Below, in pieces: positions 50,860 to 64,000 of a stretch of 64,000 bases of DNA. A model generated the notes under the pieces. That model was not told where the DNA came from, made no database searches, and saw only the letters and a program-made list of their open reading frames with translations. Numbering within the stretch: position 1 is the first letter of the stretch; each line of letters starts with the position of its first letter. Source of the stretch: Methylomonas koyamae (lineage in GTDB: Bacteria; Pseudomonadota; Gammaproteobacteria; Methylococcales; Methylomonadaceae); assembly GCF_006483455.1 (NCBI RefSeq), contig NZ_PPPU01000006.1, positions 186,001 to 250,000 on the forward strand. The letters run 5' to 3'. The position numbers and the translations under genes are program-made.

Positions 50860-51786
50860 ATGACGCTAGTCAAGGATTTTCGTTTCTGGCTGTTGGCCGC
50901 GGCGCTGGCGCTGGCCCTGGTCGCGGCGGCCGGGCCGACCCGCGTTGCCCGCCAGCCCCTGTACCGGCTGGTGTTCGTCGTCGACATCACCCGCAGCATG
51001 AACACCGAGGACTACCGGAGCGACGGCCAGTCCGTCAGCCGGCTGGAGTTCGTCAAGCAGACCCTGCGCCAACAACTGCTGGCCTTGCCCTGCCAATCGC
51101 AAGTCGGTTTGGGCGTGTTTACCGAACGGCGTTCGGTAGTGTTGTTCGAACCGATCGAAGTCTGTGCCGGCTTCGCCGAAATCGATGCGGCCATCGCGGC
51201 CTTGGATTGGCGCATGGCCTGGGCGGCGGACAGCCGCATCGCCTCCGGTCTGGCATCGACGCTGGACGCCTTCAAAAACAGCCGGGATAGTTTGGTATTT
51301 TTCAGTGACGGCCAGGAAGCGCCGCCGCCGAATCCGCGCTACCAGCCGGATTTGACCGTATTCAAAGGTCAGGTCAAGGGCTTGATCGTCGGCGTCGGCG
51401 GCGACCAGGCGGCGCCGATTCCGAAATTCGATGCCAACGGCAAGCGTTTGGGGTTTTACCGGCCGGAAGATGTTCCGCACCGCTCCACCTTCGGCGAGTC
51501 CGATTTGAATCCGGAAAAAATCGAAGGCTACGACGCCCGCAACGCGCCGTTCGGCAGTCGGGCGGTGAGCGGCGACGAGCATTTGAGCCGCTTGCACGAA
51601 GACTATCTGCGTAAACTGGCCGGTGACAGCGGCTTGCGCTATCAGCGCCTGCTGGATGCGGAAAGCTTGGGTTTGGCGCTGGCACAGAGCGGCTTTGCCG
51701 AACCGGGGCAGACCGAAACCGACATCGCCTGGCAATTTGCCGGGTTGGCCGGGTTGGCGCTGGCGGCGCTGTACTGGCGCAACTAA
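50860..51786 (+). CDS. mxaL: MxaL, VWA-domain maturation protein
   Basis: 308 residues from ATG 50860; a TTG at 50854 is also open. One helix near the N-terminus, von Willebrand A domain with MIDAS FVVDITRSMN, and a final C-terminal helix (FAGLAGLALAALYW). Paired with MxaC as the second VWA protein of the cluster. Last gene of the operon in this window; mxaD, often found after it, is upstream instead. The next gene is convergent and begins 4 bases away. Confidence 0.85.
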   Translation: MTLVKDFRFWLLAAALALALVAAAGPTRVARQPLYRLVFVVDITRSMNTEDYRSDGQSVSRLEFVKQTLRQQLLALPCQSQVGLGVFTERRSVVLFEPIEVCAGFAEIDAAIAALDWRMAWAADSRIASGLASTLDAFKNSRDSLVFFSDGQEAPPPNPRYQPDLTVFKGQVKGLIVGVGGDQAAPIPKFDANGKRLGFYRPEDVPHRSTFGESDLNPEKIEGYDARNAPFGSRAVSGDEHLSRLHEDYLRKLAGDSGLRYQRLLDAESLGLALAQSGFAEPGQTETDIAWQFAGLAGLALAALYWRN

Positions 51787-51789
51787 GGC

Positions 51790-52923
51790 TTAGTCAGCCG
51801 GCGGGCAGTCGGCGGCAATCGCCAAGGCCCGTTCGATCTCGTCCAGCGAATTGTAAAAATGTGGCGAGAAACGCACGCCGCCGCCGCGCAAGGCGCAGAC
51901 CACGCCGTGCTGTTGCAGATGCCGGTACAGCGTCTCGTTACCGGCTTCGCGGTGTTTGAACACGACGATGCCGGACTTCAGTCTGGGCGCCGCTTCGGAC
52001 AGCAACAACAGATTCGGCTGATTGCGGATGGCGTGACGCAAAAAGTCGCTGCGTTCCAGCACCAGCGTTTCCACGTTTGCCATCCCGGTCTCCAATAACA
52101 ACGACAGGCTGGCCGACAGGGCCTGAATCCCCAGCATGTTCGGGCTGCCGCATTCGAAGCGGCGGGCGCTGGGGTGAATCTCCCAGGGTCGATTCTCGTA
52201 GTTGTGGGTGTCCTTCATCATGTGCCAGCCGTACTGGCTCAAACTCAGCCGCTCCCTCGCCTCAGGTGTCGTGTAAAACACGCCCAAGCCCTCCGGGCCG
52301 AACAGCCATTTGTGGCCGTCGGCCATCGCAAAATCGGCTTGGCAAGTCTGTACGTCGAATTGCACCGCACCCAGGCTTTGAATCGCGTCGACGCAAAACA
52401 GGATGCCGCGCCGCTTGCAGAATTCGCCGATGCGCTCCAAATCCATTCTCAGGCCGGAACCGAATTGAATCGAACTGACGGTCAGCAGCCGGGTGTTTTG
52501 GTCCACCAGCGCAAACAGCGCGTCTTCCGGCGTCGCCGCGCTGCGCAGGTCGGCCTCGCGGAATTCCACGCCCCGAGCCGCCAGGGCTTGCCAGGGCAGG
52601 CGGTTGGAGGGGAACTCTTCGTTGCTGGAAACGATGTTGTCGCCGGCTTGCCAGGGCAGGCCGCAGGCCACGAAGGACAGCGCCTCCGAGGTGTTTTTGA
52701 CCAGGGCGATATCGTCGGCCGACGCCGCGTTGAGCAGTTCCTTGAACTGGCGCCGAATCAGCAATTCTTTTTTCAGCCAATCCGGGTAGTAATGCGAACC
52801 CCAGTCGCGGTTTTGTTCGACAAAGGCGATGACGGCGGCACTGGTGCGTTTCGGCCACGGCGCCACGGCGGCATGGTTCAAGTAGATCAATTCGTCGCTG
52901 AGCGGAAATTCGGGATGTTTCAT
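51790..52923 (-). CDS. Class V aminotransferase (cysteine desulfurase-like)
   Basis: 377 residues from ATG 52923; a longer frame starts at 52983. Fold type I PLP enzyme: IYLNHAAVAPWP at the start, CVDAIQSLGA (PLP-binding Asp), and DGHKWLFGPEG with the Schiff-base Lys. Related to the Csd/IscS/isopenicillin epimerase-like group. No canonical mobile-Cys loop was identified, so sulphur transfer is not assured. Convergent with mxaL. Confidence 0.8.
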   Translation of the reverse strand: MKHPEFPLSDELIYLNHAAVAPWPKRTSAAVIAFVEQNRDWGSHYYPDWLKKELLIRRQFKELLNAASADDIALVKNTSEALSFVACGLPWQAGDNIVSSNEEFPSNRLPWQALAARGVEFREADLRSAATPEDALFALVDQNTRLLTVSSIQFGSGLRMDLERIGEFCKRRGILFCVDAIQSLGAVQFDVQTCQADFAMADGHKWLFGPEGLGVFYTTPEARERLSLSQYGWHMMKDTHNYENRPWEIHPSARRFECGSPNMLGIQALSASLSLLLETGMANVETLVLERSDFLRHAIRNQPNLLLLSEAAPRLKSGIVVFKHREAGNETLYRHLQQHGVVCALRGGGVRFSPHFYNSLDEIERALAIAADCPPAD

Positions 52924-53136
52924 AATCGGGGCTCCGGCTGGTAGGAATGCCGCGCGGGGCACGGGTGACTGGCTCGAGACCAATCATAACGGGGGTGGCG
53001 GCGCAATTTCAATCGATTGTCGGCATTTACCGGCTACCGGCAAAGCTCGGTGTCGGCCAAGCCGTGATATAAAACGCTATTGGCGGCCGCGAACCGTTGC
53101 CGCGACTAAACATTCAGATTTTAATAGTTATCGAAC

Positions 53137-54672
53137 ATGATGGAATTGATTTGGATTAGCGCAGCCTATCTGACCGGCCTGGTCGCCAGCAGGTTGTCGT
53201 TTCCGCCGTTAGTCGGCTATCTGGCGGCCGGCTATGCCCTGAATGCGCTCGGCGTCGCGCCGTTGGCCGATCTGAACCACATCGCCGAGATCGGCATCGA
53301 GTTGCTGTTGTTTTCGGTGGGATTGAAATTGAAACCGGCTTCGTTGATCCGGCGCGAGGTGATCAGCGTCGGCGGCGCCCATCTGTTGATGACCACGTTT
53401 TTTTCGGCGCTGGTATTTTTCTGGTTGGAGCGGCATGTCACCGGCGGCCTGGTGCTGGGCGTCAGTCTGGCTTTTTCCAGTACCGTGCTGGCGATCAAGG
53501 TGCTGGAAGACAACGGCGAATTGTCGTCGCTGCACGGCCGCGACGTGATGAGTATTCTGATTTTGCAGGATATCGTCGCGATCGGGCTGCTGGCGGTGGC
53601 GGAAGGAAAACAGCCGACGCATTGGGCCTTGGCCTTGTTTTTGTTGCCGCTGCTGCGGCCGCTGGCCCATCGGATGCTTGCTGCCAGCCGTTCGTCCGAA
53701 CTATTGCTGCTCCTGGGCGTAACCTTGGCCTTGGCCGGCGGCGTTGCCGCCGAAACGGTCGGAATTTCCGCGGATATCGGCGCGTTACTGACCGGCATCA
53801 TGCTGGCCAATCATGCCAAAATCAACGAATTGACCGACCGCTTGTGGAGCTTGAAAGAACTGTTCCTGGTGGCGTTTTTTCTACAGATCGGTATCAGCGA
53901 TCTCCCCAGCCGGGAACAAGTGTTCATGGCGCTGCAATTGTTGGCGCTGTTGCCGGTGCAAGGCATATTGTTTTTTGGCTTGTTCCTGTTTTCCGGCCTG
54001 CGGGCGCGCACCGCCTTCGTCTCGACGTTGGCGTTAACGACTTATAGCGAATTTGCGTTGATTACGACCCGCGCCGTGGTGGACGCCAACTTGCTGCCCG
54101 GCGAATGGAATGCCGTCATCAGTCTGGCGGTGGCCGGCTCGCTGGCGTTTGCGGCGCCGCTGAACCGCTATTCGCATGCCTTGTTTTCCTGGTTCGAGCC
54201 GTATCTGGTGCGCTTCGAAAAGAAAACCGGCAATCCGGACCGATTGCCGGAATCCTTCGGCGTCGCCGAATGGCTGGTGATCGGCATGGGCCGTACCGGC
54301 CTATCGGCCTACCAGGCCTTGTCGGCTCAGGAACAGCGGGTGGTGGGCCTGGACGCCGACCCCACCGTACTGGAAAACCTGTTGGCCGAGGGCCGGCGCG
54401 TGGTCTACGGCGATGCCGAGGACAGCGAGCTGTGGAGCGGATTGCGCCTGGAGCGAATGAAGGGCGTCGTAATTACCGTGCCGGACGTCGAAACCCGTCT
54501 GCTCGCCATCAGCCAACTGCGCAAACGCGGCTTCAAAGGCCGAATCGGCACACTGTGCCACCACCAGGACGAAGAACCCGAACTAAACCGCGTCGGCGCC
54601 GACTTCGTGATTCATCCGTTGGTTGAAGCGGGTAACCAATTGGCTAGGAATATGCTGGGGGGTGAGGGGTGA
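53137..54672 (+). CDS. Monovalent cation:proton antiporter with RCK domain (Kef-type)
   Basis: 511 residues. CPA2-type transporter of about 12 helices (AEIGIELLLFSVGLKLKPAS and LAFSSTVLAIKVLEDNGEL), then a cytoplasmic RCK/TrkA-N domain from about 370 with GMGRTGLSAYQALS and a bound-nucleotide Asp (VVGLDADPTV). Likely exchanges potassium or sodium for protons across the inner membrane. Stand-alone gene. Confidence 0.85.
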   Translation: MMELIWISAAYLTGLVASRLSFPPLVGYLAAGYALNALGVAPLADLNHIAEIGIELLLFSVGLKLKPASLIRREVISVGGAHLLMTTFFSALVFFWLERHVTGGLVLGVSLAFSSTVLAIKVLEDNGELSSLHGRDVMSILILQDIVAIGLLAVAEGKQPTHWALALFLLPLLRPLAHRMLAASRSSELLLLLGVTLALAGGVAAETVGISADIGALLTGIMLANHAKINELTDRLWSLKELFLVAFFLQIGISDLPSREQVFMALQLLALLPVQGILFFGLFLFSGLRARTAFVSTLALTTYSEFALITTRAVVDANLLPGEWNAVISLAVAGSLAFAAPLNRYSHALFSWFEPYLVRFEKKTGNPDRLPESFGVAEWLVIGMGRTGLSAYQALSAQEQRVVGLDADPTVLENLLAEGRRVVYGDAEDSELWSGLRLERMKGVVITVPDVETRLLAISQLRKRGFKGRIGTLCHHQDEEPELNRVGADFVIHPLVEAGNQLARNMLGGEG

Positions 54673-55330
54673 TGACGGAGTGTTGGGCGGCGAAAGTCGA
54701 GCCATAAGCGAGTTGGTTGAACTTTCCAATGACTGCTAATGGGTCATTGGCTGAATCTGGGTTTGTGGACGTAGGCTGGGTTGAATGATAATGAAACCCA
54801 GCTTCGAAGCCGATAAGTTTCGTTATAAAAAGTGTAGTTTGAATGCAAAGAATCCTGGTTGTTTCAAGACATCTGCTGGGTTTTGCGTTGCTCTACCCAG
54901 CCAACGGTCCTGAGCGGCAAATGTCGACCCTTTCCAGCCGGTCGAACTTCGCTAAACCTGCCAATCACTCAAATCCATATTCTGACAACTGGAAGGATAC
55001 AAAGCAGCCACTTGGGATCTCTCAACCAATCGAACAATTTGATGTCGTACTTTGCTTGCGAAAAGTGGTCATCTGAGTGGCCGTTGAAAGTAATTCTCTG
55101 ATAAGCGCCTCTTGCAGGAGAGTTGGGTATCTTTAACTAACAAGCAGTAACGCCACTTATTGGCTGATTCTTTACAGCTCAAGAAAATTCAATCCGTCAT
55201 TTCATCCAGAATGTCCTTTATCGCAGGGTCAGAACGTGCCAATAACTTATGATCACAAAATTTTTTTGTAAGGTTTGATCCTCTCCTAACGACTTAGAGC
55301 ATATAGTCGAGCCAATCCAGGAGATTTCCC
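54673..55330 (+). other. Intergenic region with a REP-like hairpin
   Basis: 658 bases with no convincing gene; short frames near 54,843-55,101 have no coding character. A hairpin GCTGGGTT/AACCCAGC (54775-54782/54795-54802) is related to the double-hairpin after mxaF. The end must hold the promoter of the arsenic cluster. No ArsR gene or obvious ArsR operator seen. Confidence 0.5.
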
Positions 55331-56446
55331 ATGCTCACCAGTATTTTATTTATCAGCATCTGGTTCCTGGCCTATGCCAACGGTGCGAATGACAACTTTA
55401 AGGGTGTGGCGAGTTTGTTTGGCAGCGGCATTTTGAACTTTCGGCAAGCTCTGACTTGGGCGACGTTAACGACGTTGGCCGGTTCGATTACTTCTTTATT
55501 TCTAGCTCAGACTTTGCTGGTTAAATTTTCCGGCAAAGGCTTAGCTCCGGACGAATTGATACAGTCGCTACCGTTCATGATTGCTGTCGCAGGTGGCGCC
55601 GGAATGACGGTTGTTTTGGCGACTCGTTATGGATTTCCGGTTTCCACAACTCACGCATTGTTGGGCGCTATGGTCGGCGGCACGATATTGGCGAGCTCCG
55701 GCAGTCTCAACCTTACACCTCTGTTGAGCAACTTTGTATTGCCATTGCTTTTGAGTCCGTTGGTGGCTTTACTGGCTACTGGTTTGCTGTATTGGTTTCT
55801 GGCTCTGTGGTCTAGTCGCCTGCGAAGCGAAAACGACTGGTGTATATGCGTTCAACAACCGAACAATCAGGCACTGGCCGGTAACGCCAATATGACCATG
55901 GCGATCGATTCGATATTGATTCCGTCGTTAACCCTCGATCGACAAGAAGTTTGCACCGAGCGGCAAGCTAGCCAGATTTGGGGAATTGAACGCCTGCGTG
56001 ACGGACTCCATTTTTGCAGCGCCGGCGCGGTTTGTTTTGCTCGTGGCCTGAACGACACTCCGAAAATTGCCGCCTTGTTATTGTTGGCCCCCGGTTTTGA
56101 TTTGCATTGGATCATTATTCTGGTTGCTTCGGCGATGATGTTGGGTGGGGTGTTCAATGCACGGCGGGTGGCGGAAACCATGAGTCATAAAATCACTACT
56201 ATCACGCAGGAACAGGGCTTATCGGCTAATCTGGTCACGGCACTGTTAGTGATTTTTGCCAGCAAGTTTGGCATGCCGGTTTCCACCACCCATGTTTCCG
56301 TAGGTTCATTATTCGGCATTGGCTTGGTTAGCGGCAAGGCCAATTCAGGAGTGATCAAGTCAATTGCCTTATCCTGGTTGCTGACCCTGCCGTGTGCAGC
56401 TATTTGTTCGGCAGCAATCACACTCTGCTTTAACACCAAACTTTAA
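55331..56446 (+). CDS. Inorganic phosphate transporter, PitA family
   Basis: 371 residues, about ten helices. Duplicated family signature: ANGANDNFKGVASLFGSG near the N-terminus and ARGLNDTPKIAALLLL near residue 240, plus two similar TRYGFPVSTTHALLG / SKFGMPVSTTHVSVG blocks. Pit carriers take up metal-phosphate, and also arsenate. At the head of an arsenic cluster, it may be a phosphate-preferring carrier that limits arsenate entry, or simply neighbour it. Gap of 110 bases to the aquaporin gene. Confidence 0.85.
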   Translation: MLTSILFISIWFLAYANGANDNFKGVASLFGSGILNFRQALTWATLTTLAGSITSLFLAQTLLVKFSGKGLAPDELIQSLPFMIAVAGGAGMTVVLATRYGFPVSTTHALLGAMVGGTILASSGSLNLTPLLSNFVLPLLLSPLVALLATGLLYWFLALWSSRLRSENDWCICVQQPNNQALAGNANMTMAIDSILIPSLTLDRQEVCTERQASQIWGIERLRDGLHFCSAGAVCFARGLNDTPKIAALLLLAPGFDLHWIIILVASAMMLGGVFNARRVAETMSHKITTITQEQGLSANLVTALLVIFASKFGMPVSTTHVSVGSLFGIGLVSGKANSGVIKSIALSWLLTLPCAAICSAAITLCFNTKL

Positions 56447-56556
56447 AAGTCAAAAAACAAGAAACTGCATGAAGATCGGTTTTGAGTTTAGTCAACCTAC
56501 TCGTTTATGACCGGGCTAACGCTTAAGATGAAGCAACAAACCTACCCTCTGGAAAT

Positions 56557-57366
56557 ATGCCGATAAAATATTTGAGAGAAATGATTGATGAGACGCTTGG
56601 TACATTTGTACTGGTCTTGTTCGGCTGTGGCTCTGTTGCTGTTTCGGTTTTATTTAATGCACATCAAGGATTAATGCAAATTGCGCTAGTCTGGGGAATA
56701 GCTGTGACGCTGGCTATTTACCTGACCCGGCATTTATCCTGTGCACATCTTAACCCTGCCGTCAGTGTAGCGATGGTCGTTGGTGGACGGATGCCAATTG
56801 CCCGATTACCGATTTATGTAATCAGTCAATTTGTTGGAGCCGTAACGGCGGGATTGGTCATTTACGCGCTTTTCGCGCCATCAATTGCGGCTTATGAAAC
56901 AGCTCACGGCATCATTCGAGGCACCGCTGACTCTATCAAAACCGCTATGTTATTTGGTGAGTACTACTTCAGCCCGGGCAGTACAGCGGTCGTATCCATG
57001 CACTTGGCATTGATTGCGGAAGCTTTTGGGACATTGTTGTTAGTATTGATGATATTCGCCTTAACCGAAGGTTGTAACGTTGGCCGCCCGGATGACGGAT
57101 TGGCTCCAGTTTTCATCGGTTTGACTGTAACCTCTTTCATTTGCCTAATTGCTCCTCTCACTCAAGCCGGATTAAACCCGACGCGCGATTTTGGGCCGCG
57201 CATGGTCGCCTTATTAATGGGGTGGAATGGTGCCGCATTCCCGGATCAAGAAGGCGGCTTTTTTTTCGTCTACATCGCCGGTCCTTTGTTGGGTGGTATT
57301 GTCGCCGCCATTTTTTTTGTGCGCATCCTCGAACCAGCCATGAAAACTCCACCCTGCTGTTCGTGA
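56557..57366 (+). CDS. Aquaglyceroporin-like MIP channel (AqpS/GlpF type)
   Basis: 269 residues, six helices. First half-helix NPA motif intact (CAHLNPAVSVA); the second is NPT (AGLNPTRDFGPR) rather than NPA. The Arg of the selectivity filter is present, and Asp follows as in glyceroporins. In ars clusters such channels let arsenite or methylated arsenicals pass out of the cell. Lies between Pit and arsM. Confidence 0.8.
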   Translation: MPIKYLREMIDETLGTFVLVLFGCGSVAVSVLFNAHQGLMQIALVWGIAVTLAIYLTRHLSCAHLNPAVSVAMVVGGRMPIARLPIYVISQFVGAVTAGLVIYALFAPSIAAYETAHGIIRGTADSIKTAMLFGEYYFSPGSTAVVSMHLALIAEAFGTLLLVLMIFALTEGCNVGRPDDGLAPVFIGLTVTSFICLIAPLTQAGLNPTRDFGPRMVALLMGWNGAAFPDQEGGFFFVYIAGPLLGGIVAAIFFVRILEPAMKTPPCCS

Positions 57367-57439
57367 ACACGATAATCCACAATAGTTACATCAATCTTCC
57401 TATTTTCTAAATACAGACATTACCGCTTGAGGTATCCCA

Positions 57440-58483
57440 ATGACTAGCATTATCGAAATCAGCGAATCCGTCCAGCACTACTATGGCCAAGTATTGCAAT
57501 CAAGTAACGATCTGAAAACCAGCGCCTGTTGTAGCATTGATACAATGCCCGGTTATTTGAAAATCCTGTTGGCCGGCTTACACCCTGAGGTATTGGAACG
57601 TTTTTACGGTTGCGGCTCACCTTTACCGCCGGCCCTGGAAGGTAAAACTGTATTGGACTTGGGATGTGGCACCGGTCGAGACTGTTATCTGCTGTCGAAA
57701 TTGGTTGGCCCTACCGGGCGGGTAATTGGCGTCGATATGACACCTGAACAACTGGAAGTGGCTTTACGCCATCGTGAATGGCATGCGGTGCAATTCGGCT
57801 TCGCTAATGTCGAATTTTTGCACGGGCATATCGAAAATCTGCACACCGTTGGCATAGCCGATAACAGCATCGACGTCGTGGTATCCAATTGTGTGATCAA
57901 CCTTTCACCGGAAAAGCCTCGTGTATTGGCGGAAATATTTCGAGTATTAAAGCCAGGCGGTGAACTGTATTTTTCCGATGTGTTCGCCGACCGCCGTATC
58001 CCCGTCGAATTACGTCAAGATCCAATCTTGTTGGGCGAGTGCCTTGGCGGTGCGCTATATTGGGAAGACTTCCGGCGCATATTGCAGGACTTGGGGTGCC
58101 CAGATGTACGCAGGGCTAAAAACAACCCGATCAGCATCGACGACCCAGAAGTATTCGCAAAAATCGGTATGGTTAAATTCGAGTCTGTCACGGTGCGGGC
58201 GTTCAAAATGGCTTTGGAAGATCGTTGCGAAGACTTCGGCCAAGTCGCCGTCTATTTGGGCACCATTGATCAACATCCACACAGCTTTGATTTAGATGAT
58301 CACCACCATTTCGAGACCGGCAGGCCATTAAGAGTATGCGGTAACACTGCCGACATGCTCGCGCTCAGTCGCTACGGCGATCACTTTCAAGTCCTCGGCG
58401 ATAAGTCGCGTCATTTCGGTTTATTTGATTGCACCACTGGCTACAGCGGCGATAACAATCAGACAAGTGGCGCATGTTGTTAA
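57440..58483 (+). CDS. arsM: Arsenite S-adenosylmethionine methyltransferase ArsM
   Basis: 347 residues. SAM-binding motif VLDLGCGTGRDCYLLSKLVG near 71-90. Cysteines expected to bind As(III): SACCSID (30-31), a Cys in VVVSNCVINLSPEK (151) and one in LLGECLGGALYWED (201), besides Cys 58. A C-terminal GACC gives a further pair. It converts arsenite to mono- and dimethyl arsenicals in the cytoplasm, the first step toward arsenosugars. Its last 10 bases overlap the ECF sigma gene. Confidence 0.93.
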   Translation: MTSIIEISESVQHYYGQVLQSSNDLKTSACCSIDTMPGYLKILLAGLHPEVLERFYGCGSPLPPALEGKTVLDLGCGTGRDCYLLSKLVGPTGRVIGVDMTPEQLEVALRHREWHAVQFGFANVEFLHGHIENLHTVGIADNSIDVVVSNCVINLSPEKPRVLAEIFRVLKPGGELYFSDVFADRRIPVELRQDPILLGECLGGALYWEDFRRILQDLGCPDVRRAKNNPISIDDPEVFAKIGMVKFESVTVRAFKMALEDRCEDFGQVAVYLGTIDQHPHSFDLDDHHHFETGRPLRVCGNTADMLALSRYGDHFQVLGDKSRHFGLFDCTTGYSGDNNQTSGACC

Positions 58484-59097
58484 GCACCGGGGTGGGTAAA
58501 TCCGATCAACTGAGCGAAATGGTATTGGCCGAACATCGACCGATACTATTCCGTTACGCCCTACTGCAATTGCATGAACGCGAGCCGGCAGAGGACGCCG
58601 TGCAAGAAACGTTATTGGCCGCCTGGCAATCAGCGTGCTCATTTGACGGTAAAGCTGGCTTACGTACTTGGCTCATCGGTATCTTGAAACACAAGATTGC
58701 CGACCACTGGCGTCGCCATAGCCGCGAGATTGACAATATCGATTTCGGTCGAGCCGAGAACGTCGAAGACATAGAAGACGAAGACGATTTTTTCACCCGC
58801 AACGGTGCTTGGCAGGTTGGCCCCTCAACTTGGAATGATCCCGAGGCAGCGTTCAAGCAACAAGAGTTCTGGGCTATTTACCAGACATGTCAAAACAATC
58901 TGCCAGCTAAAATGGCTCAGGTATTCGTGCTGCGCGAACTGGTGGGATTGGAAGCCGAAGAAGTCTGTCGGGAGACCGGTTTAAGTGAGGCCAATTATTG
59001 GGTCACCATGCACAGAGCCCGTTTGCGACTCCGTGAATGCTTGGAAATCCGCTGGTTTCACAAAACGAAACCTCAAAAGGAGCATCATCATGCATAG
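58474..59097 (+). CDS. ECF-type RNA polymerase sigma factor
   Basis: 207 residues, overlapping arsM by 10 bases. Sigma region 2 (LFRYALLQLHEREPAEDAVQ, then ETLLAAWQ and LRTWLIGILKHKIADHWRR) and region 4 (KMAQVFVLRELVGLEAEEVC and a helix-turn-helix) are both visible, with an acidic linker (EDIEDEDDFF). Probably drives this cluster or other stress genes. A zinc-finger gene starts inside its end. Confidence 0.85.
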   Translation: MLLSTGVGKSDQLSEMVLAEHRPILFRYALLQLHEREPAEDAVQETLLAAWQSACSFDGKAGLRTWLIGILKHKIADHWRRHSREIDNIDFGRAENVEDIEDEDDFFTRNGAWQVGPSTWNDPEAAFKQQEFWAIYQTCQNNLPAKMAQVFVLRELVGLEAEEVCRETGLSEANYWVTMHRARLRLRECLEIRWFHKTKPQKEHHHA

Positions 59098-59293
59098 TTG
59101 CCACGACATTAGCTCACTGGTATCGAAGGGACTAGATAAGAAATTGCCTTTCAGTGATCGATTAGCGATCAGAGTGCATATAACAATGTGTTCGCATTGT
59201 AGAAATTTCGAACGTCAAACGAAGTTTATTCGTAAAACTGCTCAAATCTATATTCAGCGTATTGAGCATTTCACTGATAGGAACGGTCGTTAA
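59090..59293 (+). CDS. Small zinc-finger protein, probable anti-sigma factor (zf-HC2)
   Basis: 67 residues from ATG 59090, with AAAAGGAG upstream and an 8-base overlap with the sigma gene. The core is the anti-sigma zinc motif: Cys 4, then HITMCSHC, i.e. His-x3-Cys-x2-Cys. No membrane helix, so a soluble anti-sigma. The tight coupling to an ECF sigma gene supports the role. Zinc thiolates could be the arsenic or redox sensor; that is inference. Confidence 0.75.
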   Translation: MHSCHDISSLVSKGLDKKLPFSDRLAIRVHITMCSHCRNFERQTKFIRKTAQIYIQRIEHFTDRNGR

Positions 59294-59388
59294 ACTGATA
59301 TGAAGAGTTTATCTATTTTTAGCGTTAGCGGGGCATTGTGTATCGATGGCTGGAGGTATTGGCGCTCATTGTATTTCTTAGGCAGAAA

Positions 59389-60036
59389 GTGAACAAATCG
59401 CTGCTTTTGTTTTCATTAACTTTGCTAGTGCATCAACCTGGACTGGCGGAGTCTGTTTTCCCGATCGGCAATTTCAGCCGCAATGATTTGGACGGTTGGG
59501 AACATAAAAGCTTCAAAGGCGAAACACGCTACCGTTTACTGGCTATCGATGGCGTTATAGCACTGGCGGCCGACAGCCGCGCCGCGGGTTCCGGTTTGTT
59601 CAAGGAGCTAACCGTCGATTTAACCCAAACCCCTTATTTGAATTGGTCGTGGCGTGTTACTCAGCCCTTGGCCGGCTTAAATGAACAGAGCAAGCTCGGC
59701 GACGATTACGCCGCTAGACTCTATGTCGTGGTCAAGGGTGGCCTGGCATTCTGGCAAACCCGGGCCATCAATTACGTCTGGGCCGGAAATAATCAAAAGA
59801 ACAGCGTTTGGCCCAACGCCTTCGCCGGCGACCACGCCATGATGCTGGCTTTGCGGGGCCCGGAAGCGCCAGTTAATATCTGGCAGCACGAAAAACGCAA
59901 CATTAGGGCCGACTTCAAGCAACTTTTCGGTGACGATATCAGCAATATCAATGCGGTTGCAATCATGACCGACACGGACAACAGCGGCCGCGAAGCATCG
60001 GCTGCGTATGGCGACATTTGGTTTTCCAAGGAATAA
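59389..60036 (+). CDS. DUF3047-domain secreted protein
   Basis: 215 residues from GTG 59389, chosen because it gives a clean signal peptide (SLLLFSLTLLVHQPGLAES); a GTG at 59338 is alternative. DUF3047 body: LNWSWRVTQPL, KLGDDYAARLYVVVKGGLA and INYVWAGNNQKNSVWPNAFA. Likely periplasmic and of unknown function; placed between the anti-sigma and arsS genes, with only one base to arsS. Confidence 0.75.
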   Translation: MNKSLLLFSLTLLVHQPGLAESVFPIGNFSRNDLDGWEHKSFKGETRYRLLAIDGVIALAADSRAAGSGLFKELTVDLTQTPYLNWSWRVTQPLAGLNEQSKLGDDYAARLYVVVKGGLAFWQTRAINYVWAGNNQKNSVWPNAFAGDHAMMLALRGPEAPVNIWQHEKRNIRADFKQLFGDDISNINAVAIMTDTDNSGREASAAYGDIWFSKE

Positions 60037-60037
60037 C

Positions 60038-61012
60038 ATGCGAGACAGCAAACCTTTCCTGCTGAACAGCGACTTTCCCGCTATCACTCGGCTACCTCTA
60101 CAGACTCTGCAAGTCAACTTGGGTTATCTGTGTAATCTGAGTTGCGTGCATTGTCATGTCAATGCTGGCCCAAAGCGCACGGAGCTGATGAGTCGTGACG
60201 TCATCGAACAAGTCTTGGCGCTGGCACGTGAAAATAACATTCGGACACTGGATCTCACTGGCGGCGCACCGGAAATGCATCCGGAATTTCGTCATTTGGT
60301 TTGCTCGGCACGCGGGCACGGTATCGAAGTAATCGATCGCTGCAACCTGACTATCTTGGAAGCTCAAGGCTATTGGGACTTGGCCGATTTTTTAGCAGGG
60401 CAACAGGTGCAAATTGTGGCTTCTCTGCCGTGTTATTTGGAAGATAATGTCGATAAACAGCGCGGTAAAGGCGTGTTCCGCGATAGTTTGGCGGCGTTAA
60501 AACGCCTGAACGGACTGGGATACGGTCAAGTGGACAGCGGGCTCGAGTTGCACCTGGTATTCAATCCGCAAGACGCAGTATTGCCACCCGATCAGCGCGC
60601 GTTGGAGCAAGCTTACAAGCAACATTTGCAAGACGACTATGGCATCGTCTTTAACCGTCTATATGCCATCGCTAACATGCCGATTCAACGTTTCGGTAGC
60701 GTGCTTTTAAGCCAGGGGCGCTTCGAAGCCTATATGGCCTTGCTGAAGGACAGTTTTCGGCCTGACAATTTGGATAACCTAATGTGTCGTTCAACCTTGA
60801 GCGTCGACTGGCAAGGTTATGTGTACGACTGCGATTTCAATCAAATGCTGGGTCTACCGTTGGGTGCCGTTGGTAAGCCCCAAATCCATATCCGCGACTT
60901 GCAAGGCATCGATCTTAGTCAAGGCAGTATCACTACCGCCGCTCATTGTTACGGCTGCACCGCTGGCCAAGGCAGTAGTTGCGGGGGGGCCTTGGTCAGC
61001 AATTCAACATGA
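60038..61012 (+). CDS. arsS: Arsenosugar biosynthesis radical SAM protein ArsS
   Basis: 324 residues from ATG 60038. Radical SAM cluster motif CNLSCVHC (Cys 32, 36, 39), then LTGGAPEMHPEF. C-terminal SPASM-like cysteines end in CYGCTAGQGSSCGG, a pattern of ArsS. It joins the 5'-deoxyadenosyl group to a methylated arsenical to start arsenosugar synthesis. The site that is selenocysteine in some ArsS relatives is an ordinary Cys codon (TGC) here. Overlaps the next gene (ATGA at 61009). Confidence 0.9.
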   Translation: MRDSKPFLLNSDFPAITRLPLQTLQVNLGYLCNLSCVHCHVNAGPKRTELMSRDVIEQVLALARENNIRTLDLTGGAPEMHPEFRHLVCSARGHGIEVIDRCNLTILEAQGYWDLADFLAGQQVQIVASLPCYLEDNVDKQRGKGVFRDSLAALKRLNGLGYGQVDSGLELHLVFNPQDAVLPPDQRALEQAYKQHLQDDYGIVFNRLYAIANMPIQRFGSVLLSQGRFEAYMALLKDSFRPDNLDNLMCRSTLSVDWQGYVYDCDFNQMLGLPLGAVGKPQIHIRDLQGIDLSQGSITTAAHCYGCTAGQGSSCGGALVSNST

Positions 61013-63159
61013 AACGGGGTAAGCTGGTTTTAGGCGCGACTCTGGCACTCGGTATTGTCCTGTTTTTTGGCCTGAGCTTGCAGCAGCATTTGACACTGGA
61101 CAGCTTGAAAAGCCATCAAGCGGCCATCGAACAGTACCGGCAAAATCAACCGCTGCTGGCTTACGCATTGTACGGCCTACTCTATATTACGATAACCGGA
61201 CTTTCGCTGCCGGGGGCGGCGGTATTGACACTCGCAGGCGGAGCAATTTTCGGACTATTCTGGAGCATCTTGCTAGTGTCGTTCGCCTCCAGTATCGGCG
61301 CGACTCTGGCGTTCTTGGCTGCCCGGTATTTGCTACGTGATTGGGTCAGGGCTCGTTTCGGCCAGCGCTTACAGGCAATCGAAACCGGTCTGCAGCGGGA
61401 CGGAGCGTATTATTTGTTTACCTTACGTCTCGTGCCGGTTTTCCCTTTTTTTCTGATCAATCTAGCGATGGGTCTGACGCCCATGAAAACTTGGACCTTT
61501 TACTGGATCAGCCAACTCGGCATGCTGGCCGGCACCCTGGTGTACGTCAACGCCGGCACACAGCTAGGCAATATCGATACGCTGTCCGGGATTTTGTCTC
61601 CAGGTCTGTTAGCCTCGTTTGCGTTACTCGGCCTGTTTCCACTGCTGACAAAAAAGCTGGTCGACTTCCTGCAAAGCCGCAAGGTCTATGCAGGCTGGCG
61701 CAAACCCAAACGTTTCGACAACAATCTAATCGTGATAGGCGCGGGCGCGGGTGGCTTGGTTAGCGCTTATATTGCCGCCGCCGTCAAAGCCAAAGTCACA
61801 CTCATCGAACAACAGAAAATGGGCGGCGATTGCCTGAATACGGGCTGCGTGCCGTCCAAAGCCTTGATTCGCTCGGCTAAGTTTCTATCCCACGTCCATC
61901 GCGCAGCGGAATTCGGCATCGCCAGGGCTTCTGCCGATTTCACGTTCGCCGAAGTGATGGAGCGGGTACAGCAGGTGATCAAATCCGTCGAACCGCACGA
62001 TTCGATCGAACGCTACACTGAGCTGGGCGTCGATGTTGTTCGGGGTCGCGCCAAAATCGTTTCACCCTGGGAAGTCGAGGTGAGCACTTCCGACGGCGCC
62101 AAAACCCTTACCAGCCGTTCGATTGTCATTGCTGCCGGCGCCCAGCCATTTTTACCGCCCATTCCGGGAATTGAGCGAATCGACTGCCTGACCTCGGATA
62201 CGATTTGGCAATTGCGCGAACAACCCAAACGCTTGTTGGTGCTCGGTGGCGGCCCGATCGGCTGCGAATTATCGCAAACCTTCGCCCGCCTGGGTTGCAA
62301 AGTGACGCAAGTTGATATGGCTCCCCGCATTCTGGCCCGCGAAGACGCTGACGTTTCGGAGTTAGTGACAAAGCGATTTCAAGGCGACGGTGTGGACGTG
62401 CGGATCAGTCACACGGCAAAGCAATTCTTATTGGAAGACGGCGAACAGAGCTTACTAGCCGAACACGCCGGCCAAACCGTCAAAATTGCGTTCGACCAGG
62501 TATTGGTTGCCGTCGGCCGCGCCGCCAATGTTTCCGGTTATGGCGTCGAGGAATTGGGGATCGCGTTGACACCGCACAATACGGTAGCCGCTAACCCGTT
62601 TCAGCAAACCAATTATCCGAATATTTACGCGGTCGGTGACGTTGCCGGTCCCTATCAGTTCACCCATACCGCGGCGCATCAAGCCTGGTATGCCGCGGTC
62701 AACGCCTTGTTCGGTCATTTTAAAATGTTTCGTACCGATTACTCGGTAATCCCCTGGGCGACTTTCACCGACCCGGAGGTTGCTCGCGTTGGTCTGAATG
62801 AACAGGAAGCGCAAATTCAGAATATCGCGTATGAAGTTTCTACCTACGGCATCGACGATCTGGATAGGGCCATCGCCGACAACGAGGCACACGGTTTCGT
62901 CAAGGTGCTGACCGTGCCGGGCAAGGACAAAATCCTCGGCGTGACCATCGTCGGCGAACATGCCGGCGATTTGCTGGCGGAATTCGTCTTGGCGATGAAA
63001 CACGGTATCGGCCTGAATAAAATCCTCGGCACAATCCACATTTATCCGACCATGGCGGAAGCCAATAAATATGCGGCGGGCGTCTGGAAGCGAAATCACG
63101 CACCCCAGCGTCTGCTGGATTGGCTGGGTCACTACCATGTGTGGCGGCGGAACGCTTAA
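61009..63159 (+). CDS. TVP38/TMEM64 membrane domain fused to flavin disulfide reductase
   Basis: 716 residues from ATG 61009 (overlaps arsS stop). N-terminal 225 residues: TVP38/TMEM64 (SNARE-associated, DedA-related) membrane domain, with GLSLPGAAVLTLAGGAIFGL near 64-83. From about 236 on: class I pyridine nucleotide-disulfide reductase with FAD site IGAGAGGLVSA, redox pair CLNTGC at 275-280, NAD site LGGGPIGCEL, and a dimerisation domain with mercuric-reductase-like features. Likely an inner-membrane-tethered reductase acting on a disulfide or an arsenical; the substrate is unknown. Confidence 0.85.
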   Translation: MKRGKLVLGATLALGIVLFFGLSLQQHLTLDSLKSHQAAIEQYRQNQPLLAYALYGLLYITITGLSLPGAAVLTLAGGAIFGLFWSILLVSFASSIGATLAFLAARYLLRDWVRARFGQRLQAIETGLQRDGAYYLFTLRLVPVFPFFLINLAMGLTPMKTWTFYWISQLGMLAGTLVYVNAGTQLGNIDTLSGILSPGLLASFALLGLFPLLTKKLVDFLQSRKVYAGWRKPKRFDNNLIVIGAGAGGLVSAYIAAAVKAKVTLIEQQKMGGDCLNTGCVPSKALIRSAKFLSHVHRAAEFGIARASADFTFAEVMERVQQVIKSVEPHDSIERYTELGVDVVRGRAKIVSPWEVEVSTSDGAKTLTSRSIVIAAGAQPFLPPIPGIERIDCLTSDTIWQLREQPKRLLVLGGGPIGCELSQTFARLGCKVTQVDMAPRILAREDADVSELVTKRFQGDGVDVRISHTAKQFLLEDGEQSLLAEHAGQTVKIAFDQVLVAVGRAANVSGYGVEELGIALTPHNTVAANPFQQTNYPNIYAVGDVAGPYQFTHTAAHQAWYAAVNALFGHFKMFRTDYSVIPWATFTDPEVARVGLNEQEAQIQNIAYEVSTYGIDDLDRAIADNEAHGFVKVLTVPGKDKILGVTIVGEHAGDLLAEFVLAMKHGIGLNKILGTIHIYPTMAEANKYAAGVWKRNHAPQRLLDWLGHYHVWRRNA

Positions 63160-63176
63160 GGTATAAGTTTCAAGAC

Positions 63177-63860
63177 ATGGCATACCCTATTAGTATTGTC
63201 ATCCCGGTGCTCAACGAGGCCGGACATCTCGCCAGCAAACTACAAGCCTTGCAGAGACTTCGTGATCGTTGCCAACTACTGCTGGTCGATGGCGGCAGTC
63301 ATGATAATAGCTTGGAAATTGCTAAGCCTCTGGTCGATAAGGTCATACTCAGTTCTCGCGGTCGGGCTATACAAATGAATGCAGGCGCTTTACAAGCTGA
63401 TGCGGAGATTCTGCTGTTTTTACATGCCGATACTCGATTGCCGGAGAATGGGATTGATTTGATTAGCCAAGCCATAGCTGAAGGTTTCCACTGGGGGCGT
63501 TTCGATGTGGCATTCGACAACCCTAAACCCGTCTTCACACTAATCGCCTTCATGATGAATCAACGCTCACGGCTGACCAGCATCGCCACCGGTGACCAAG
63601 CTTTGTTCATGACCCGAGCAGCATTTGCAGCGGTAGGTGGATTTCCAGGGATTGCCTTGATGGAGGATATTGCTATTAGCAGCAAGCTAAAAATACTCGG
63701 TAAACCCTGTTGTTTAAAAGCCAAAGTGCTGACTTCTGCGCGACGCTGGCGACAAAACGGCATCTTCAATACCATCCTACTGATGTGGCGGCTACGCTTA
63801 GCGTATTTTTTCGGTGCCGATCCCGATGATCTGGCCATGCGTTATTACGGGAGAAGATGA
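63177..63860 (+). CDS. Family 2 glycosyltransferase, arsenosugar biosynthesis type
   Basis: 227 residues from ATG 63177. GT-A fold: ISIVIPVLNEAGHLASKLQA, ELLLVDGGS region, LFLHADTRLP (metal motif) and the late GDQALFMTRAAF. The ISIVIPVLNE start and the 227-residue size fit the glycosyltransferases found with ArsM/ArsS. Its stop overlaps the next start (ATGA). Confidence 0.8.
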   Translation: MAYPISIVIPVLNEAGHLASKLQALQRLRDRCQLLLVDGGSHDNSLEIAKPLVDKVILSSRGRAIQMNAGALQADAEILLFLHADTRLPENGIDLISQAIAEGFHWGRFDVAFDNPKPVFTLIAFMMNQRSRLTSIATGDQALFMTRAAFAAVGGFPGIALMEDIAISSKLKILGKPCCLKAKVLTSARRWRQNGIFNTILLMWRLRLAYFFGADPDDLAMRYYGRR

Positions 63861-64000
63861 TGGAAGCCATGTTGCGCTTTTGCATGTTTATCGGCATTTT
63901 GTTGTTGATGGCAATTTGGGAAGTACTAAGTCCGACTCGGCATTTAAGCGTCCGGCGTCGTCAACGCTGGATGATCAATCTCGGTTTGGCGGCATTGAAT
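63857..64000 (+). CDS. Sterol desaturase/fatty acid hydroxylase family protein, N-terminus
   Basis: Start ATG 63857 or 63860, running off the right edge after 48 codons. It opens with a hydrophobic helix (MLRFCMFIGILLLMAIWEVL) followed by a basic stretch and RRQRWMINLGLAALN, the usual start of this di-iron membrane oxygenase family. The His box motifs would lie beyond the window. Placed at the end of the arsenosugar genes by overlap. Confidence 0.55.
   Translation, partial: MMEAMLRFCMFIGILLLMAIWEVLSPTRHLSVRRRQRWMINLGLAALN

Follow-up and report, generated by a model that had tools for sequence, protein, structure and literature searches.

Layout of the cluster

We analyzed a stretch of 64,000 nucleotides (the window) from contig NZ_PPPU01000006.1 of Methylomonas koyamae (assembly GCF_006483455.1, a 4.54-Mb genome), positions 186,001 to 250,000 of the forward strand. 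Toward the end of the window lies a cluster in which genes for arsenic methylation (arsM) and arsenosugar synthesis (arsS) stand with a gene pair for an extracytoplasmic function (ECF) sigma factor and a small zinc anti-sigma protein. Coordinates are those of the window (1–64000), and genes past 64000 are numbered on in the same way. The cluster has 11 genes, all on the + strand between 55331 and 65321, with four overlaps and a largest gap of 110 bases (in order: 110, 73, overlap of 10, overlap of 8, 95, 1, overlap of 4, 17, overlap of 4, and 7). All of the reading frames are intact, and a convergent gene comes after the last of them.

Table 1. Promoter and genes of the cluster, in window coordinates
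Feature	Position	Strand	Evidence or remark
ECF-type promoter TGTAAGG-N16-CGACT	55267-55294	+	36 bp 5' of pit
pit, PHO4-family phosphate (possibly arsenate) transporter	55331-56446	+	PF01384 216 bits; head gene of the ECF-controlled unit
MIP-family channel, aquaglyceroporin-like	56557-57366	+	PF00230 147.5 bits
arsM, As(III) S-adenosylmethionine methyltransferase	57440-58483	+	phmmer against solved ArsM 5evj, 3.3e-109
ECF sigma factor, TIGR02943 family	58474-59097	+	208.8 bits, cut-off 162.2
Zinc anti-sigma, 67 aa, soluble	59090-59293	+	NF052368 71.4 bits, cut-off 50
DUF3047 protein	59389-60036, GTG start (longer frame from GTG 59338)	+	PF11249 202 bits
arsS, radical SAM arsenosugar enzyme	60038-61012 (alternative ATG 60008)	+	TIGR04167 455.5 bits, cut-off 300
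VTT (TVP38/DedA-like)-FAD disulfide oxidoreductase fusion	61009-63159	+	PF09335 85 bits, PF07992 209 bits
TIGR04283 arsenosugar-associated glycosyltransferase (GT2; GT83)	63177-63860	+	269.2 bits, cut-off 182
FA_hydroxylase-family integral membrane oxygenase (FAH)	63857-64651, crosses the window end at 64000	+	PF04116 100 bits
TIGR04282 (DUF2064) transferase (GT82)	64659-65321, beyond the window	+	189.8 bits, cut-off 134

Profile searches located every gene named in the original prediction, in the order given there, on the + strand and joined by overlaps or short gaps. The cluster is thus real and longer than had been noted, with a complete FAH gene and a TIGR04282 transferase gene reaching past the window end. 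Of the two head genes, pit scored short of the NCBIfam PitA cut-off and the channel scored 168.5 against a TIGR00861 cut-off of 171.25. The description of the host as a methanotroph, itself a prediction, rests on the closest named relatives among the matches listed, Methylomonas sp. SURF-2 and LW13, whose ArsS proteins are 74–75% identical to this one; the loci of named relatives are the best 80 of at least 593 confirmed candidates.

The cysteines of ArsM that we take to be the arsenic-binding residues aligned with those of the solved arsenite methyltransferase 5evj, and among the operon proteins tested ArsM has the closest solved relatives. In ArsS, the CxxxCxxC motif and the C-terminal cysteines were invariant in 14 aligned sequences, and the DUF3641 end matched PF12345 with 192 bits. 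ArsS, TIGR04283 and TIGR04282 all exceed curated cut-offs, which supports the predicted arsenosugar cluster at the level of protein families. The TIGR04282 fold is nucleotidyltransferase-like. ArsS was reportedly characterized by Cheng et al. in 2021 (cited in PMC12159101).

The head promoter and the sigma/anti-sigma pair

The operon appears to be activated by the ECF sigma factor that it encodes, through the promoter at its head. The motif TGTAAGG-N16-CGACT had a single exact match in the genome, at the operon head, and the reversed pattern had none. A 19-position version of the motif matched without mismatches at this site alone; three other sites had 3 mismatches, compared with two for the reversed pattern. 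Across 20 genomes of the same family there were 19 exact matches versus 5 for the reversed pattern. Seventeen of these 19 lie at pit, at the sigma gene (ecf), at bufA (a bufferin-like, copper-peptide type of gene) or at a VTT-flavoreductase gene upstream of arsS, with three of the 17 beside bufA and facing away from it; the other two are elsewhere. At three loci (L292, L302 and L304, in genomes G135, G107 and G060) an exact motif about 150 bp upstream of bufA points in the opposite direction and is conserved, with no gene assigned downstream. A scan for sigma-70 promoters gave 9 matches versus 14.4 in shuffles, fewer than chance, and was uninformative.

In relatives and here, the motif was found 5' of pit at 11 of 11 loci, counting our own (the spacing is 15 in L277), where the count leaves out L040 and L281, in which the DNA before the head pit is lacking or a gene other than pit stands at the head. 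It was also present 5' of arsM at both loci without a head pit, 5' of ecf at 9 of the 11 loci that begin with ecf (the exact core in 7 of them), and 5' of bufA in 14 of 15 cases, with a spacing of 15 or 16.

To place the operon among its counterparts we surveyed 119 non-redundant arsS loci (121 fetched, two dropped as duplicates), with 10 kb on each side or about 8 kb for 40 of the 121. The linkage of genes seen here recurs elsewhere: the neighbors were GT82 (70 loci), GT83 (69), ArsM (48), VTT (44), PNDR (38), DUF3047 (32), ECF of any type (29), ZF (28), FAH (15; it is rarer in this mixed set), Pit (12) and the channel (2). The ECF factor belonged to the clade of the window sigma at 22 of the 119 loci, that is, at 22 of the 29 with an ECF. 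L147, L168, L169 and L177 have an ECF/zinc anti-sigma pair of another type, divergent from arsS, which suggests that the association of ECF pairs with arsS arose repeatedly. Chance placement of ECF genes near arsS was considered and rejected, as 16 of the 68 ECF matches in the family lie within 10 kb of ArsS where rough arithmetic expects fewer than one.

We then scanned 300-base zones before cluster genes at the 119 loci for the exact motif (spacing 15–17, CG[AT]CT), using 200 permuted motifs as a control. The zones held 14 exact motifs versus a permuted mean of 0.03 and maximum of 2, although 4 of the 14 (L002, L036, L038 and L070) are sites before pit from which the motif had in part been derived. 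The 72 loci outside our own family had 5 exact motifs in zones and 5 elsewhere. A promoter matrix built only from Methylomonadaceae sites, of 8 distinct types, scored 16 or more at 35 of the 119 loci (shuffled-matrix mean 1.05, maximum 8) and, among the 72, at 21 loci (shuffled mean 0.4, maximum 2); the 72 still include four loci that are Methylococcaceae or methanotroph by name (L108, L112, L124 and L142), none of which is among the 21 matches. Thirty fresh arsS loci with no overlap with the earlier ones, 28 of them from one other family (f31), had a matrix match within 300 bases of arsS in 14 cases (shuffled mean 0.05, maximum 2). Twelve of these 14 matches sit 21–64 bp before arsS, and the flanks of the matches are near background; all 14 come from eight genera of family f31 and so are related rather than independent. 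The predicted sigma/anti-sigma control of the cluster is well supported by these sequences: a unique head promoter, promoters before orthologous ecf and bufA genes, and promoters before arsS operons in other Beta- and Gammaproteobacteria.

The anti-sigma protein has 67 residues, no membrane helix (best 19-aa hydropathy 0.5) and the zinc anti-sigma (ZAS) motif C4-X25-H-X3-C-X2-C, which is kept in 29 of 30 anti-sigma matches across arsS loci. PMC7907618 places HrsE, the 67-aa anti-sigma partner of Haemophilus RpoE2, in the cytoplasm, notes its ZAS motif and assigns it to ECF group 13; MseR, the partner of meningococcal (Neisseria) SigE, is likewise a small cytoplasmic ZAS anti-sigma (PMC7907618, PMC3240639). 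As in those pairs, the sigma gene here stands beside that of a small cytoplasmic anti-sigma with the pattern C/H-X23-26-H-X3-C-X2-C, and the length of 67 aa is shared with HrsE. By contrast, the targets there are msrAB and here would be arsenic methylation and arsenosugar synthesis; the proteins and promoters are likened by description.

We also examined 25 ecf loci (L205–L229, about 61% identity or more). At 14 of these ecf comes directly after arsM; a bufA-like gene occurs in the larger stretch at 8 of the other 11 and at 7 of the 14. We looked in the tree for a sigma clade specific to arsenic and found none, since ArsM-side and Buf-side sigma factors interleave; that tree holds no Haemophilus or Neisseria sigma. 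At L288 and L290 (genomes G090 and G053) a deletion that spared the promoter has left remnants of the start of pit, and in L288 also of the end of arsM, in the stretch upstream of ecf. Because of these remnants, the order pit-arsM-ecf is probably old, with arsM lost in both. Four loci (L038, L265, L070 and L281) bring arsS together with the arsM-ecf-zf unit and a bufA-like gene in one neighborhood, and L280 combines the unit with a bufA-like gene and DUF3047, with no arsS in view. Our own genome has two MNIO (PF05114) genes with BufA-like neighbors elsewhere (G000:C42:7284-8069 and C20:101372-102166). One of the two adjoins a gene that looks DedA-like by eye.

FAH, DUF3047 and the fusion protein

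The last gene of the original prediction had been called a desaturase-family gene. This identity gave way to PF04116 FA_hydroxylase; its tie to the cluster held, and FAH co-evolves with ArsS. The histidine boxes of FAH were invariant in 7 homologues. We scored FAH as present in the 151 genomes of the family where the match was at E 2.4e-56 or better, so that 29 genomes with weaker best matches count as absent. FAH was found in 107 genomes and ArsS, over its cut-off, in 109: 98 have both, 33 neither, 11 ArsS alone and 9 FAH alone (Fisher p 6.7e-16), and four of these nine (G021, G099, G106 and G116) have partial ArsS matches. The concordance of 131 out of 151 was above that of any of 5000 within-genus shuffles, which peaked at 125. 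At the 30 best FAH loci, TIGR04283 was alongside in 23 and TIGR04282 in 16, often on a different contig from arsS. FAH thus appears to be gained and lost together with ArsS. This co-evolution and the adjacency to GT83/GT82 make the strongest case for including a membrane oxygenase in the pathway. Identity with the ornithine-lipid hydroxylase OlsE was rejected (NF052566 81.3 versus a cut-off of 475): FAH shares the FA_hydroxylase superfamily with OlsE but is far under the OlsE cut-off and is tied to arsenosugar glycosyltransferases.

The DUF3047 protein has a signal-like N-terminal segment and invariant Trp and Asp residues. We counted 92 strong places for it in the 151 genomes, leaving out 20 weaker or fragmentary rows. 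The prediction of DUF3047 as a partner in the cluster held in part. It lies on the same strand within 300 bases upstream of arsS in 42 of the 92 places, with 5 more within 10 kb; however, 33 are unlinked in ArsS-bearing genomes and 12 are in genomes without a full ArsS, among which G099, G106 and G116 hold partial ArsS matches. On these counts we rejected DUF3047 as a protein of ArsS alone. Its within-genus co-occurrence with ArsS (106 of 151 concordant, reached by 4 of 5000 shuffles) is weaker than that of FAH. Sequence searches found no solved relative of DUF3047 or FAH.

The oxidoreductase half of the fusion protein has a CLNTGC redox pair and no CC pair in its last 40 residues. Mercuric reductase MerA carries a C-terminal CC, and MerA identity was rejected both for this lack and because the score of 365.9 is under the cut-off of 454.45. 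Proteins of the VTT family are associated with lipid scrambling.

Proposed function, alternatives and surroundings

Our preferred reading, which we consider fairly probable, is that these genes form one mobile, ECF-controlled arsenosugar operon with a product that is probably put into or built on the membrane. Its parts are of familiar kinds, and the novelty is in their regulated, mobile arrangement. Its strongest new points are the predicted ECF promoter shared by arsS operons and the co-evolution of FAH with ArsS. In such a pathway Pit and the channel would serve the entry or handling of arsenate or arsenite, and ArsM would dimethylate As(III) with S-adenosylmethionine. ArsS would then add 5'-deoxyadenosyl to give a dimethylarsenical nucleoside, from which the base would be removed by an enzyme not found in the operon. 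The TIGR04282 protein, nucleotidyltransferase-like by family, could activate the arsenoribose, and the GT2 enzyme TIGR04283 could transfer it onto an acceptor, either glycerol or a glycerolipid. In the fusion protein, the flavoreductase half may keep arsenic or thiols reduced and the VTT half may move a lipid-linked intermediate through the membrane; FAH, by family a membrane di-iron oxygenase, would hydroxylate the lipid or the aglycone, and DUF3047 may have a role outside the cytoplasm. As for control, in an unstressed cell the 67-aa zinc protein would sequester the sigma factor. Attack on the Cys/His zinc site by soft metal(loid)s or oxidants would free the sigma, which would act at the single promoter before pit to raise expression of its own operon. 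We infer that As(III) is sensed at this zinc site.

Several results weigh against this reading. The 119 loci contain another eleven exact motifs that are not in the zones (permuted mean 0.69, maximum 5), and some of these stand before bufA. At 30 loci of our own family (10 of them used before), the motif is within 300 bases of arsS in none and within 1500 in 4; at these loci DUF3047 often precedes arsS. The motif was not significantly associated with presence of the sigma gene at 41 loci (p 0.17), so that sigma-gene presence was dropped as an explanation of the motif across the family, and the motif occurs at L042, L052 and L065, where a search at E 1e-20 found no sigma of this kind. Carriage of a close sigma (61% identity or more) has no clear tie to carriage of ArsS: the two agreed in 61 of the 151 genomes, a value reached by 243 of 5000 within-genus shuffles. 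Because the same sigma lineage also adjoins bufferin-like genes without ArsM, its predicted signal need not be arsenic. ArsM did not reach the NCBIfam cut-offs, scoring 121 against the 400 set for the arsenosugar type NF038099, and no nucleosidase or arsenic exporter was recognised within the operon. Finally, the sequences directly show the gene content and order, the conserved promoter with its wider occurrence before arsS operons, and the co-evolution of FAH with ArsS, whereas we infer the inducer, the chemistry beyond the known reactions of ArsM and ArsS, and the lipid end product. The arsenolipid or membrane-linked product suggested in the original prediction is a plausible conjecture.

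The sharing of sigma and promoter with bufferin-like genes raises the possibility that the sigma/anti-sigma pair, as a switch of the bufferin type, answers to copper or oxidant stress and not to arsenic and only travels with the arsenic genes, and that the arsenosugar genes are induced in a general thiol or soft-metal response. We regard this as a serious possibility, if on balance doubtful. Orthologous ecf genes precede bufAB-like genes behind the same promoter, and the sigma factors of the two sides are mixed in the tree. The relatives HrsE/RpoE2 and MseR/SigE respond to HOCl or H2O2 and drive msrAB (PMC7907618, PMC3240639). A resemblance to the bufferin/MNIO operons (PMC12452194, PMC12668002) exists in relatives, whose orthologous sigma and same promoter stand before bufA-like genes; the operon here, by contrast, is without buf genes, and neither of the two bufferin papers has the string 'arsen' anywhere in its main text. 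Moreover, the only exact promoter of our genome is that of the arsenic operon, with none seen by eye in about 300 bases upstream of its two bufA-like genes, so that we found no sign that the operon belongs to a bufferin regulon in this genome. Some arsS operons also have the promoter without a sigma gene in the locus.

Another explanation concerns the product. ArsM and ArsS are enough for the first known steps, and cyanobacterial producers give a precedent (PMC12159101) for a soluble oxo-glycerol arsenosugar as the only product, in which case FAH, the VTT fusion and DUF3047 would be envelope housekeeping under arsenic stress. The DNA covered at 104 of the 119 arsS loci has no FAH. We find this explanation somewhat unlikely, as FAH tracks the gain and loss of ArsS within genera and stays beside GT83/GT82 even off the arsS contig. 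The cyanobacterial ArsM-ArsS pathway shares ArsM and ArsS with the operon, and NCBI names TIGR04282 and TIGR04283 arsenosugar-associated; it differs in that the operon here adds the ECF/ZAS pair, the Pit-ArsM head, DUF3047, the VTT-flavoreductase fusion and FAH. Plain detoxification by arsenic methylation, in an operon where ArsS and the transferases are merely passengers that have decayed or have no part in it, would fit relatives that have Pit-arsM-ecf-zf with no arsS in view (e.g. L266, L267 and L270), as well as the close solved relatives of ArsM. This is very unlikely given intact reading frames, invariant ArsS cysteines and the 109 family genomes with arsS over its cut-off.

The mobile, ECF-controlled arsenosugar operon that we favor may be part of a wider pattern, which we put forward tentatively and hold to be doubtful as a whole. 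Arsenosugar synthesis in Pseudomonadota might generally be an ECF regulon, in which a thiol-reactive zinc anti-sigma senses arsenic and soft metals and TGTAAGG-N16-CGACT drives arsM/arsS jointly with bufferin peptides, and the methanotroph sugar might be mounted on lipid by a GT83-FAH-GT82 module that is lost with arsS. To our knowledge, the bacterial control of arsenosugar synthesis and the enzymes that act after ArsS are open questions. In the open-access literature, so far as its text was available, we found nothing on sigma control of arsenosugar genes; where 'arsenosugar' and 'sigma factor' co-occur, they are used apart. The named promoter, the sigma/anti-sigma pair and a few co-evolving enzymes, FAH foremost, are candidates for study in culturable methanotrophs, and the analysis links arsenic organification to a regulator lineage found before copper-peptide genes. 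If the FAH module does work on lipid, it would be a pointer to bacterial arsenolipid genes.

The cluster sits in what appears to be a mobile, accessory segment of about 12 kb, because it is missing from a genome of the same species (G061). There the flanks (window 51764-54930 and 67208-74000, 96–97% identical) are about 1 kb apart. G126 has the segment 55251-67071 as separate pieces (74–87% identical), which begin 16 bases before the promoter and lie some 325 kb away from the left neighbor's counterpart in G126. The segment has a G+C content of 0.509 versus 0.549 in the rest of the window. At its left edge (window 54684-54912) is a repeat of about 230 bases, with copies of 81–84% in G061 (L339 3147-3376 and 12381-12496). 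The gene that converges on the operon is haloperoxidase-like by eye (window-equivalent 65364-66962, - strand; L002:10865-12463); it belongs to the segment and moves with the operon, being 92% identical in G126. Elsewhere in the window, the G+C content falls to 0.43–0.45 between 10000 and 20000, where two proteins have PEP-CTERM-like tails by eye.

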